A DNA stretch of 64,000 nucleotides from the NCBI RefSeq assembly GCF_034120055.1, contig NZ_CP139368.1, positions 2,046,001 to 2,110,000 on the forward strand. Direction: 5' to 3'. Both the position numbers and the translations under genes were made by a program. Shown one piece after another: positions 43,922 through 48,807 of this stretch (within the stretch, counting starts at the first letter, position 1; each line of letters starts with the position of its first letter). The notes below the pieces were generated by a model. It had not been told where the DNA came from and made no database searches. It saw only the letters and a list, made by a program, of their open reading frames with translations. Source of the stretch: Microbacterium rhizosphaerae. GTDB lineage: Bacteria > Actinomycetota > Actinomycetes > Actinomycetales > Microbacteriaceae.

Positions 43922-45271
43922 GTGACCGCAGCGAAGACGAAGACCCGCGCGCAGGACGCCGAGACCGAGGAGACCCCCGAGACAGAGGCGAAGGCCCCGG
44001 CCAAGCGCACCGCGACCCGCAAGCCGGCCGCCAAGAGCGCGGCGAAGCCCGCAGCGAAGGCTCCGGCCAAGGCCGCATCGAAGAGCAAGGCGAAGTCCGA
44101 GGACGACGACGATGAAGAGCTCGACGTCGATGCCGTCGCGGAGGAGCTCGAGGTCGAGGTCGACACCGACGACGTCGAACACGAGGGCGAGGTCGAGGAG
44201 GCGCCGGCGGCCGCCAAGGAGGAGCCCGAGGACGACGACGAGGACGAGGAGGGCGCGGCGAAGCCTGTCTTCTCCGAGCCGCTGCCGACGGGCGCCATCG
44301 TCATCTCCTCGAGCGACGACGAGGACGTCCCCGTCTATTCCGCGCAGATCACCGGCGCAACCGCGGACCCGGTCAAGGACTACCTGAAGCAGATCGGAAA
44401 GGTCGCGCTGCTGAACGCGGCCGAAGAGGTCGAGCTCGCGATGCGCATCGAGGCGGGCCTGTTCGCCGAGGAGAAGCTGTCGCACATGTCGGCGGCCGAG
44501 AAGTCGTCTCAGTTGGGGCTGGATCTGCAGTGGGTGGCCCGCGACGGCCAGCGTGCGAAGAGCCACCTGCTGGGTGCCAACCTGCGCCTCGTGGTGTCGC
44601 TGGCAAAGCGCTACACCGGTCGCGGCATGCAGTTCCTGGACCTCATCCAGGAGGGCAACCTCGGCCTCATCCGTGCCGTCGAGAAGTTCGACTACACCAA
44701 GGGCTTCAAGTTCTCGACCTACGCGACGTGGTGGATCCGCCAGGCGATCACCCGCGCGATGGCCGACCAGGCTCGCACCATCCGCATCCCGGTGCACATG
44801 GTCGAGGTCATCAACAAGCTCGCGCGCGTGCAGCGCCAGATGCTGCAGGACCTGGGCCGAGAGCCCACGCCCGAGGAGCTCAGCCGTGAGCTCGACATGA
44901 CCCCCGAGAAGGTCATCGAGGTGCAGAAGTACGGCCGTGAGCCGATCTCGCTGCACACCCCGCTAGGCGAGGACGGCGACAGCGAGTTCGGCGACCTGAT
45001 CGAGGACACCGAGGCCGTCGTTCCGGCGGACGCGGTGGGCTTCACGATGCTGCAGCGCCAGCTCGAGTCGCTGCTGGACTCCCTGAGCGAGCGCGAGGCC
45101 GGCGTGATCCGCATGCGGTTCGGTCTGGGCGACGGTCAGCCCAAGACGCTCGACCAGATCGGCGACACCTTCGGCGTCACGCGCGAGCGGATCCGCCAGA
45201 TCGAGTCGAAGACGATGGCGAAGCTGCGCCATCCGTCACGTTCGCAGTCGCTGCGGGATTACCTCGAGTGA
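43922..45271 (+). CDS. rpoD: principal RNA polymerase sigma factor
   Basis: The primary sigma factor (SigA/HrdB type), 449 residues. The first 110 residues are low complexity: Lys/Ala-rich, then a strongly acidic run ([14 protein letters not shown]), as expected for region 1.1 of actinobacteria. Region 2 has [20 protein letters not shown] and [20 protein letters not shown]; region 4.2 has [20 protein letters not shown] at 43922 follows GAAAGGCGAGAC. The next gene overlaps by 4 bp. TTGACA at 43849 is a possible -35, but I see no well-placed -10. Confidence 0.97.
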
Positions 45272-45966
45272 GCGGCGAGGCGAACGAGGGCAAGGCGCTC
45301 ACCGCGACACTGGACGGGACCCGATACGCGCGGATCCCGATCCGGACGCGGGTCGTCATGCCCGGTGACGACCTCGATGCATTCGTGCGCGAGTACGCCG
45401 ACGGCAAGCTGCAGGGCGGCGACATCCTCTTCGTCACGGAGAAGATCGTCGCCATCACGCAGGGCAGGTCGTACCTCGTCGAGGAGATCACGCCGCGCAA
45501 GCTCGCCTACTTCCTCTCGAAGTACGTGACGCGCACGCCCCACGGGATCGGCCTCGGCATGCCCGAGACCATGGAGATGGCATTGCGCGAGTGCGGGCCG
45601 ATCCGCATCCTGTTCGCGGCCGCCGTGGCGGCCGTGACCAAGGCGTTCGGCCGCAAGGGCGACTTCTATCGCATCGCCGGTGACAAGGCTCGCGCGATCG
45701 ATGGTCCGACGAGCGGCACGATCCCGCCGTACAACAAGGCCGTCGTGCTCGGACCGGAGCGTCCCCGCGAGGTCGCGCAGCGCCTGCAGGCGCTGCTCGG
45801 CGGCGTCGCGGACGTCGCGGTCGTCGACATCAACGACCTCGGCGGCAACATCCTCGGGTCGACGCTCGACAAGTCGGGCGAGAAGCGCCTCGTCGCCATC
45901 CTGAAGGACAACCCTCTCGGCCAGGGCCACCAGTCGACTCCTCTGGGGATCGTCCGGCCCTCCTGA
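45268..45966 (+). CDS. CofE-like F420-0:glutamate ligase-family protein
   Basis: A 232-residue protein related to the ligase that adds glutamate to coenzyme F420 (CofE/FbiB). Seen are [34 protein letters not shown] and [17 protein letters not shown]. No F420 biosynthesis gene (CofC, CofD, FbiC types) is in the window, so the substrate may be another glutamyl acceptor. It starts with GTGA overlapping the rpoD stop, implying coupling to sigma factor synthesis. A terminator follows. Confidence 0.8.
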
Positions 45967-45978
45967 CGGCGAACGAGT

Positions 45979-46004
45979 ACGCCCCCGGCTCGTGCCGGGG
46001 GCGT
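45979..46004. terminator. bidirectional terminator after the CofE-like gene
   Basis: ACGCCCCCGGC pairs with GCCGGGGGCGT, loop TCGT, followed by TTCTCGT. It separates the convergent CofE-like and ATP-grasp genes. Confidence 0.85.
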
Positions 46005-46011
46005 TCTCGTG

Positions 46012-47034
46012 TCAGAAGCCGATCGCCTGGCGGTAGCGGGGCTTGTTGCCGGTGCGGATGCCGGTCACGCTGGGCTTGTTCTCGTACACGCCGGCACCCC
46101 AGTTGCCCTCGACGAGGACCGGGCCCTCGGGAGTGACCACGATGTCCCAGCCCACGTACTGCACCTGCGGCACGACCCGCGCGACCTGATCGACGAACGT
46201 CTTGACCTCGTCGACCATCGGCAGCTGGAAGTCCGCGATGCGGAAGCCCGAGTCGGGATGGAGCTCGTGCACGTTGGCGTGCGAGTCGTAGCCCGCTCCC
46301 ATGGCATGCCCGTTCTCGTCGAGCATCGTGTAGAAGCCGCCGAACGTCATCTGGTCGCTCACGGCGCCGCGCCCGAACTTCTGCGCCATCGCGAGGATGT
46401 GCGTCTGCTCGCCGTCGAAGAAGGCCGTGACGCGCGTCGTGTTCACCGTGCCCGGGCACACCGCGGCGAGGTCTTCGTGCTGCACGATGACTTCTTCGAT
46501 GAGGATCTCGCCGCGCTGGAGCAGACCGCGGTGGAAGGCATCCCAGTCGTCCACGTCCGCCGCGTGGTAGCGATGCACACCCGTGCCCGCCTGCCCGACG
46601 GGCTCCTTCGTCACGACCGTGCCCTGGCGCTCGGTGAAGGCGCGCACCTCGTCCGCGTTGCCCGCCTCGACGACCATCCACTCGCGCTTCAGGTAGTCGC
46701 TGAAGACCCGGTCGAAGGCGACTTTGTCGTGGAACAGGTGCCGGAACGCCGGATCGTCGTATCGCTGCGAAAGCTGGTTCGAGACGGGATGCGTCATGTA
46801 CGTGGCGCGCTCGTCGCGATTCAGGATGGCGAAGTCGAAGTCGATGTAGTCCTGGAAGCCGACGTTGCGGAAGCCCGCCTGCCACAGCATGTCGGCGACG
46901 ATGGCGGGCGTCCACTTGCCGTGCTGCTCCGACGCCTCCTTCGCGCGCTCCACGACCGAGCCGACATCGATGCGGCGGGCCCGGGCGGCGAGATAGCGGA
47001 GGCGGGGGGTGAGGCCGAGGCCGTTCTGAGGCAA
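46012..47034 (-). CDS. sugar-transfer-associated ATP-grasp-like protein
   Basis: About 340 residues with an ATP-grasp fold: nucleotide-binding KEPVGQAGTGVHRYHA, then ILIEEVIVQHEDLAAVCPGTVNTTRV, GGFYTMLDENGHAMGAGYD and the metal-binding end VGWDIVVTPEGPVLVEGNWG. This resembles the sugar-transfer-associated ATP-grasp family often encoded in polysaccharide or envelope loci. The precise reaction is unknown. TTG at 47034 is chosen because GGAG lies six bases upstream; no ATG or GTG fits as well. Its promoter overlaps that of the divergent alanine racemase pair. Confidence 0.78.
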   Translation of the reverse strand: MPQNGLGLTPRLRYLAARARRIDVGSVVERAKEASEQHGKWTPAIVADMLWQAGFRNVGFQDYIDFDFAILNRDERATYMTHPVSNQLSQRYDDPAFRHLFHDKVAFDRVFSDYLKREWMVVEAGNADEVRAFTERQGTVVTKEPVGQAGTGVHRYHAADVDDWDAFHRGLLQRGEILIEEVIVQHEDLAAVCPGTVNTTRVTAFFDGEQTHILAMAQKFGRGAVSDQMTFGGFYTMLDENGHAMGAGYDSHANVHELHPDSGFRIADFQLPMVDEVKTFVDQVARVVPQVQYVGWDIVVTPEGPVLVEGNWGAGVYENKPSVTGIRTGNKPRYRQAIGF

Positions 47035-47067: not shown

Positions 47068-47074
47068 TAGTCTA
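47068..47074. promoter_or_regulatory. shared heptamer with two divergent -10 elements
   Basis: TAGTCTA reads TAGTCT on the plus strand (seven bases before GTG 47081) and TAGACT on the minus strand (34 bases before TTG 47034). The two promoters could not be occupied together. Confidence 0.5.
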
Positions 47075-47080
47075 AAGGGC

Positions 47081-47773
47081 GTGACGGCGGTGAACCTGGG
47101 CGACGATGCGCCCGACGCCGTCGGCACGTCGGCTCCGCGCGTCCGCCTCTCGCGTGCCGCACTGCACCGCAACGCCCTCGCTCTGGGCGGCCGTCCGGCC
47201 GATCTGCGCCGCGATGCGTGGGGTCATGGCATCCTCCAGGTCGCCGCGGTGCTCGTCGACGCCGGGGTGCGCGCGGCGCTCGTCGACGCGGGCGATGAGG
47301 ATGCCGTGGCGATGGCCGGACTCGAGCCTCGACTCACCGGCTCAGCCGTCGGTGACACGGTGTACGGCGTGGCGTCCGGCACGAGCGCCGTCATGGCGCT
47401 CGAGGGCACCGTGCTGTCGACCAAGGCGCTTCGCACCGGGGAGGGCGTCTCCTACGGCTTCCTGCACCGTGCCGCCGCGGACACGCGCATCGCGCTGGTC
47501 ACCGGCGGCTATGCCCAGGGTGTGGTGCGCTCGCTGGGCGGCCGGGCATCGGTGCTGATCGCCGGACATCGTCTTCCGATCGTCGGCCGCGTCGCCATGG
47601 ATGTGTGCGTGGTGGATATCGGGGATGCCGACATCCCCCGCGGGACGACGGCCACGTTCTTCGGTGGCACCGGCGCCCCGAGCGTCGCCGAGTGGGCCTC
47701 GGCCACCGGTCTTTCCGCCGCCGAGATCCTCACGGCGGTAGGCCTGAACGCCACGAGGGAATGGATCGCATGA
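47081..47773 (+). CDS. alanine racemase C-domain protein lacking the barrel (split Alr, part 1)
   Basis: A 230-residue protein similar to the C-terminal beta domain of alanine racemase. It carries the catalytic-base tyrosine motif EGVSYGFLHR (Y125), GGYAQGVVR and the substrate-binding GRVAMDVCVVDIGD. The front 50 residues are a vestige of the start of the enzyme, but the PLP-Lys motif VKADAYGHG reads LRRDAWGHG, with Arg in place of Lys, and the remaining barrel of about 200 residues is absent. The next gene, overlapping by 4 bp, has the complementary part. In normal Alr dimers each active site combines Lys of one chain with Tyr of the other. GTG at 47081 has TAGTCT seven bases upstream. Confidence 0.85.
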   Translation: MTAVNLGDDAPDAVGTSAPRVRLSRAALHRNALALGGRPADLRRDAWGHGILQVAAVLVDAGVRAALVDAGDEDAVAMAGLEPRLTGSAVGDTVYGVASGTSAVMALEGTVLSTKALRTGEGVSYGFLHRAAADTRIALVTGGYAQGVVRSLGGRASVLIAGHRLPIVGRVAMDVCVVDIGDADIPRGTTATFFGGTGAPSVAEWASATGLSAAEILTAVGLNATREWIA

Positions 47774-48807
47774 CCGCACGGCTCGACGTCGATCTCGACC
47801 TCTTCGCCGCGAACCTGCGCGCCGTGCGCGAGCGCATCGCGCCGGCCGAGCACATGCTGGTCGTGAAGGACGACGCGTACGGACACGGGCTGGTGCCCAT
47901 CGTCCGGGCGGCTCGGGCCGAGGGCGTGCGCTGGTTCGGCGCCTTCGACATCCCGACCGGGCTGGCGGTGCGCGACGAGGCTCCCGACGCGCGGGTCTTC
48001 TCGTGGCTCGTCGGCTCGGCGGACGAGGCCAGAGCCGGCGTCGACGCCGACCTCGACCTGGGAGTCGGCGATACGGCGCTGCTGGAGGAGGTCGCGGCGG
48101 CGGGACGCGAGGCCGGCCGGCCGGCGCGCGTGCACCTGAAGATCGACACCGGTCTGCACCGCAACGGCATCCGTCCCGAGGAGTGGGATGCAGCGGTCGC
48201 TCGCGCCGCGCAACTGGAGCAGGCGGCATCCCTCATCGTGGAGGGCGTGTGGAGCCACATCGCCGAGGCGTCCGACGCCGAGGATGACGCCGCGCGAGCG
48301 GTCTTCGACGACGCGGTGCGCGCGGCCGAGCGGGCGGGCCTGCAGCCGCGTCTGCGGCACCTCGCGGCGAGCGCGGCGGCGTTCGCACGTCCCGAGTTCC
48401 GCTACGACCTCGCTCGGGTCGGCGCGTTCGCCTATGGCATCCGTCCCGCGGGCGGTCCGGGGGAGGACGAACTCGGCATCCGGCCGATCGGCGCCCTGCG
48501 GGTCGACGTGCGGTCGGTGGTCGACGACCGGGCGATCCTCGGTCTGGGAGCGCTGGACGGATTCCCGTCTTCGCTGGCAGGTCTCACCCACGTCGGCACG
48601 CCCGCCGGACGGGGCGAGGTCGTCTCCGTCGATCTGGACACGATGACCGTGACGGGCTGGGCGGATGCTGCGCCCGCCCAGACGGTCACGGTGTGGGGAG
48701 CGGATGCGCCGTCGGTGACGGATCACGCCGAACTCATCGGGTCGATCGGCGAGGAGATCGCCGTGCGGCTCTCGCCGCTCGTGCCGCGCGTCTACCGCGC
48801 GGAATGA
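47770..48807 (+). CDS. alr: alanine racemase barrel protein lacking the Tyr motif (split Alr, part 2)
   Basis: A 345-residue alanine racemase-like protein with a complete PLP barrel: MLVVKDDAYGHGLVPI (K33), HLKIDTGLHRNGIRP, WSHIAEASD, LAASAAAFARPEFRYD and RVGAFAYGIRP. The C-terminal domain is shorter than usual: after RPIGALRVDVRSVVDD the GxGVSYG segment with the catalytic Tyr is missing and GRVxMD is replaced by GEVVSVDLD. The C-terminal end PRVYRAE is typical. ATG at 47770 overlaps the stop of the first gene (ATGA). It probably acts with that protein to make D-alanine for peptidoglycan. Confidence 0.88.
   Translation: MTARLDVDLDLFAANLRAVRERIAPAEHMLVVKDDAYGHGLVPIVRAARAEGVRWFGAFDIPTGLAVRDEAPDARVFSWLVGSADEARAGVDADLDLGVGDTALLEEVAAAGREAGRPARVHLKIDTGLHRNGIRPEEWDAAVARAAQLEQAASLIVEGVWSHIAEASDAEDDAARAVFDDAVRAAERAGLQPRLRHLAASAAAFARPEFRYDLARVGAFAYGIRPAGGPGEDELGIRPIGALRVDVRSVVDDRAILGLGALDGFPSSLAGLTHVGTPAGRGEVVSVDLDTMTVTGWADAAPAQTVTVWGADAPSVTDHAELIGSIGEEIAVRLSPLVPRVYRAE

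Follow-up and report, generated by a model that had tools for sequence, protein, structure and literature searches.

Two overlapping genes of Microbacterium rhizosphaerae as probable halves of a heteromeric amino-acid racemase formed by complementary loss

We analysed a stretch of 64,000 nucleotides from the genome of Microbacterium rhizosphaerae (hereafter the window; contig NZ_CP139368.1, positions 2,046,001 to 2,110,000), in which two consecutive genes, here called A and B, each resemble a different part of alanine racemase (Alr). Their coordinates, reading frames and ATGA overlap, reported in a first-pass annotation, were borne out by the sequence (Table 1). Protein A matches the C-domain family PF00842 alone (residues 104-226, 108.2 bits), and protein B covers the barrel profile PF01168 entirely and enters PF00842 only at profile position 35 (28.9 bits). 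These matches exceed the Pfam gathering scores (cut-offs 25 and 24.1) and place both proteins, by domain and fold, in the fold-type-III pyridoxal 5'-phosphate (PLP) racemase superfamily (PF01168/PF00842). Both score below the curated cut-off of 168 bits for the Alr family TIGR00492 (92.4 bits for A, 133.8 for B), and neither carries the PLP lysine and the catalytic tyrosine of Alr in a single polypeptide. By sequence, the closest solved relatives are mycobacterial alanine racemases for A and Streptomyces alanine racemases for B.

The active-site residues are divided between the two proteins. B has a PLP lysine at Lys33, together with Lys124, Arg131, His163 and Arg216; its tyrosine loop is deleted, its C-domain is without the SYG and GRVxMD motifs, and Glu328 sits at the position of Tyr354. 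A has the catalytic-type Tyr125 and Met173, with Arg43 at the PLP-lysine position. The earlier description of A as a C-domain with tyrosine, and with arginine in place of the lysine, thus stands; its claim that A has no barrel needs refinement, since residues 1 to about 100 are a barrel remnant in which the stretch around DAWGHG weakly resembles the Alr PLP-lysine motif. The PLP-lysine column is occupied in 112 of 114 distinct A sequences, and A looks like a racemase from which the bulk of the barrel was deleted. A TAGTCT hexamer ends seven bases upstream of the GTG of A (47068-47080) and would fit a leaderless transcript.

Table 1. Positions of the gene pair, its key codons and two context genes in the window
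Feature	Position	Strand	Details
Protein A, C-domain subunit	47081..47773	+	GTG start, 230 amino acids, PF00842 108 bits
Arg43 of A (PLP-lysine position)	47207-47209		codon
Tyr125 of A (catalytic-type)	47453-47455		codon
Met173 of A	47597-47599		codon
ATGA overlap	47770..47773	+	stop of A, start of B
Protein B, barrel subunit	47770..48807	+	ATG start, 345 amino acids, PF01168 185.5 bits
Lys33 of B (PLP lysine)	47866-47868		codon
Glu328 of B (Tyr354 position)	48751-48753		codon
Divergent ATP-grasp ligase (PF14397)	46012..47034	-	likely start TTG at 47034; context gene that varies from species to species
F420-0:gamma-glutamyl ligase-like protein (PF01996)	45268..45966	+	context gene; Pfam 45.6 bits

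This division recurs throughout a residue census of 129 B and 130 A loci from same-genus, family and named genomes, which after removal of repeats comprised 113 distinct sequences of B and 114 of A; one A locus (L120) holds only a piece of B, and the loci showing both genes carry at least 19 genus labels. The loci were chosen by similarity to the window and so sample the pair, not racemases at large. In Geobacillus Alr numbering (residues 39, 265, 312 and 354), Lys39 and Tyr265 never occur on one chain: Tyr265 is found in 0/113 B and Lys39 in 0/114 A. All 113 B keep Lys39, Lys129, Arg136, His166 and Arg219 and have the Tyr265 loop deleted, and none has Met312; SYG or SYD strings in 36 of them fall within the barrel part, not at Tyr265. 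Conversely, Tyr265, Arg309 and Met312 are kept in 114/114 A, Lys129 and His166 in none, and position 39 is Arg in 57, Ala in 28, another residue in 27 and a gap in 2. (Y265F and Y274F tyrosine mutants are named among the solved racemase structures.) Given its presence in every distinct B and A, the reciprocal pattern is not due to chance. The census also agrees with the first-pass view of B as a PLP barrel whose C-domain has lost its motifs. A frameshift of a single gene, already discounted in that annotation, and a sequencing error were both rejected: the order of the domains is reversed, both frames are open and the same pattern recurs in 113 and 114 distinct sequences.

The two genes also travel together. 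The identical four-base overlap is present in 108 of 129 loci (repeats counted). Entire genomes were compared for 35 same-genus members, each of which has both genes or neither; for named species the comparison covered the pair locus, and 77 readable loci contain no A without B or B without A. The ratio of nonsynonymous to synonymous substitutions (dN/dS) indicates purifying selection on A; the value for B came from stop-to-stop frames that included overlapping upstream sequence and was not used.

In typical racemases of this fold, as is established for Alr, both of the identical active sites draw on two chains: one chain's barrel gives the PLP lysine, and the C-domain of its partner gives a tyrosine, the second catalytic base. 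This composite site across two identical chains is a textbook feature of Alr, and its interface is a drug target. We consider it very probable that A and B are the different subunits of a single PLP-dependent fold-type-III amino-acid racemase, made heteromeric by complementary loss; this confidence concerns the heteromeric racemase and not its substrate. A racemase gene would have been duplicated, after which B would have retained the barrel and lysine and lost the tyrosine loop, while A would have retained the C-domain and tyrosine, losing first the lysine and later the greater part of the barrel. Because these losses are complementary, only one kind of site, formed by the barrel of B and the C-domain of A, could still work. 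The residue pattern, joint inheritance, overlap and natural fusions are observed, and assembly and activity of the pair are inferred. The interdependent heteromer with a single kind of site, as first proposed, likewise gains support from the residue pattern, from A-B fusions and from long A proteins with dead barrels.

Such fusions exist in some relatives, and one was predicted as a confident pseudo-dimer (predicted template-modelling score, pTM, 0.89). In four genomes of one genus label (g79), A is about 343 residues long with a complete barrel, in which Lys39 is replaced by Asp, Lys129 by Val and His166 by Gly, and Arg219 is retained; by its residues, this long A is a dead full-length intermediate. 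Intact single racemases of Curtobacterium (P0025) and Frondihabitans (P0040) carry Lys, Tyr (as SYD), GRVAMDQF and Glu354. In the barrel tree they form one group with P0033 and P0037 (Shimodaira-Hasegawa-like approximate likelihood-ratio test, 97) between the main B clade (18 rows) and Alr; P0037 and P0040 are present in both barrel trees. B is not one clade in these trees: there are four changes, at least three of them forced by starred branches. A six-member B group and the nearby L121, all seven with Asp354, stand beside Alr of Herbiconiux and Subtercola, a second pair from Agreia falls among Alr, and the long-A barrels lie on long branches. As many as three separate splits are compatible with the trees. 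The likely path would run from an Alr copy through a change at residue 354, duplication and complementary loss to deletion of the barrel of A. The census, trees, fusions and dead-barrel long A point the same way as the origin first proposed, and duplication with complementary loss is well supported.

The second pair belongs to genus label g99, which we assigned to Agreia: the second A of one genome is a 100% match to Agreia pratensis, followed by A. bicolorata and Agreia sp. COWG. An intact alr was not found in any of five Agreia genomes, each 99% complete (L241-L280); both strong barrels are B-type, both full C-domains are A-type, and the remaining PF01168 matches are weak and without adjoining PF00842. 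The first Agreia pair is window-like, with A before B and Glu354. The second has B before A, keeps Tyr354, and its B is about 47-49% identical to the complete Alr of the window genome. It lies between glmS-acpS and tsaE, as does alr in the window genome (gene names by sequence reading). Judged by sequence and position, a separate split pair stands in for alr at the usual alr locus in Agreia, which would mean that split pairs of this kind work, provided that no transaminase supplies D-alanine. One source assigns protein P0245 to Clavibacter michiganensis; it is 86% identical to the second A subunit of A. pratensis, closer than expected between genera, and may be mislabelled.

The first-pass annotation took A and B for the alanine racemase of this organism and named a complete alr elsewhere as one half of what would count against that. 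Such a gene lies at C1:1047577-1048647. The pair as the sole alanine racemase of the cell was therefore rejected, and alanine is probably not its substrate; the idea of a split alanine racemase survives in Agreia, where a split pair replaces alr. Position 354, which presumably faces the substrate pocket, is Glu in 102, Asp in 10 and Tyr in 1 of the 113 distinct B. This conserved change from tyrosine points to another substrate than alanine, and an acid there would suit a side-chain amino group. The B-type wall bridge starts at the D-Glu alpha-carboxyl, the group that MurT-GatD amidates. From the acid at 354, the MurT-GatD or ligase neighbourhood and this bridge chemistry, we lean towards a diamino acid for the B-type wall bridge, likeliest ornithine (D-ornithine, with D-lysine or D-2,4-diaminobutyrate in relatives). 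That the pair is instead a second heteromeric alanine (or serine) racemase, which would alter only the substrate, seems doubtful: A and B are most similar to Alr, and the Tyr354 split pair at the alr locus of Agreia is the sole Alr candidate found there, but the window genome has its complete alr, an acidic residue, Glu or Asp, occupies 354 in 112 of the 113 distinct B whereas the alr-replacing pair has Tyr, and seven of 35 same-genus genomes manage without the pair, each with a complete alr match.

We compared pair presence with wall chemistry as given in the passages drawn on from PMC10757982 and PMC10978784, and six of nine Microbacterium species fit. M. testaceum, M. hydrothermale, M. proteolyticum and M. 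croceum (the last counted by its A protein only) are given with ornithine and have the pair, and M. arborescens and M. saccharophilum are given with lysine and have no pair at the locus. M. trichothecenolyticum, M. flavescens, M. ginsengisoli, M. oleivorans and others were excluded as their diamino acid was not given, and the passages drawn on from PMC6113628, PMC11319209, PMC3655929 and PMC9998209 yielded no usable species.

Several observations weigh against parts of this account. The three remaining species run the other way: in those passages M. radiodurans is reported with D-ornithine and has no pair at the locus, and M. enclense and M. kunmingense are reported with lysine and have it. 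The same sources single out M. radiodurans and M. enclense as unlike their clade (PMC10757982) and describe the M. kunmingense wall as different from that of its close relative ET2 (PMC10978784). The pair is absent from the seven genomes mentioned above. The adjacent ligase is variable and also occurs without the pair, which ties it only loosely to the racemase. D-alanine in Agreia could come from a D-amino-acid transaminase.

Other explanations concern the heteromer itself. B might be the sole enzyme, using another base or having another fold-III activity, with A as a regulatory or stabilising partner: the examined PLP-site residues are all kept in B, and catalytically dead partners that activate enzymes are known elsewhere, such as the ornithine decarboxylase antizyme inhibitor and the trypanosome S-adenosylmethionine decarboxylase prozyme. 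A scaffold, however, would have no need of precisely the catalytic tyrosine, and A keeps Tyr265, Arg309 and Met312 in every distinct sequence while its remainder erodes and the tyrosine loop is deleted from every B; we regard this alternative as quite improbable. Still less plausible is that A and B serve different partners, A for example completing the housekeeping Alr and B acting in another complex; it is conceivable that the C-domain of A docks on the complete Alr's barrel, yet A and B are never apart in the 35 whole genomes and 77 named loci, overlap by four bases in most loci and are fused in some relatives. That they are decaying duplicates, two dead racemase fragments, as their sub-threshold TIGR00492 scores might suggest, is scarcely credible against the strict complementarity, the conserved overlap and the fusions, and pseudogene decay was rejected on the dN/dS of A. 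Returning to the heteromeric racemase, the wider picture that we marginally favour is that Microbacteriaceae evolved split, obligately heterodimeric racemases at least twice, perhaps three times: a D-ornithine-type racemase (the Glu354 clade and, perhaps separately, the Asp354 group) and the alr split of Agreia, which has no intact alr, with the halves re-fused into a single-chain pseudo-dimer in some lineages.

The pair locus lies between sigA and parE (gene names by sequence reading). A close relative of the window ATP-grasp ligase is present at 43 of the 52 named pair loci; five others carry two divergent ATP-grasp ligases, and the remaining four carry MurT-GatD (lipid II isoglutaminyl synthase). 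A sequence search with the window ligase gave no match to solved structures up to E 1. In 14 of 25 named loci without the pair, the same slot holds two ATP-grasp genes that share about 38-44% identity with that of the window (among them L190, L198, L207, L214, L220 and L231). The F420-ligase-like gene is missing from loci with MurT-GatD in the same slot, and MurT-GatD never shares the slot at 45268-47034 with the F420-ligase-like and ATP-grasp genes (L130, L134, L135, L142, L143, L148, L158, L208, L212, L213 and L229). Searches of whole genomes did not find MurT in the window genome. Among the 35 same-genus genomes it occurs in six, and these six are the very ones that lack a close ATP-grasp homologue (five with no match, one with matches of about 30% only). 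It looks as if amidation of lipid II D-Glu has been replaced by unrelated ligases. L208, titled Planococcus sp. APC 4015, has a Microbacterium-type sigA-MurT-GatD-parE-parC locus, and the record is probably mislabelled or mixed.

Among known systems, the pair shares with homodimeric Alr (PF01168 and PF00842, TIGR00492) both domains, the PLP lysine, catalytic tyrosine and GRVxMD, and, as predicted for the pair, the composite site across the dimer interface. It differs in having two genes with lysine and tyrosine on different proteins, Glu or Asp for Tyr354 in B, a largely deleted barrel in A and a separate complete alr. Broad-specificity, lysine, serine (VanT) and histidine racemases, a group that includes enzymes for basic amino acids, have the same fold and domain order and are matched at lower scores than Alr; unlike A-B, they are to our knowledge single-gene enzymes. 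The intact Curtobacterium and Frondihabitans racemases share Glu354 and adjoin the main B clade, but have all motifs on one chain. Enterococcal D-Asp racemase and ATP-grasp ligase (RacD/Aslfm type) make the wall bridge; as at our locus, a racemase gene neighbours that of an ATP-grasp ligase and a role in the interpeptide bridge is proposed, although their racemase family is unrelated and the ligase link at the A-B locus is variable. Among the open-licence papers searched, we found no account of a split racemase, nor of genes supplying the D-diamino acid in B-type peptidoglycan.

A heteromeric A-B racemase is a variation on a known kind of enzyme, in which evolution seems to have run a complementation experiment, leaving half of the chemistry on each chain. 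One bacterial family displays dead full barrels as intermediates, the 230-residue remnant as an end point, and re-fusions, which makes A-B a clean system for how homomers turn into obligate heteromers. The two genes are also candidates for supplying the D-diamino acid of B-type peptidoglycan, which has long served in taxonomy as a marker, and the pair may help build the unusual cell wall of Microbacteriaceae.
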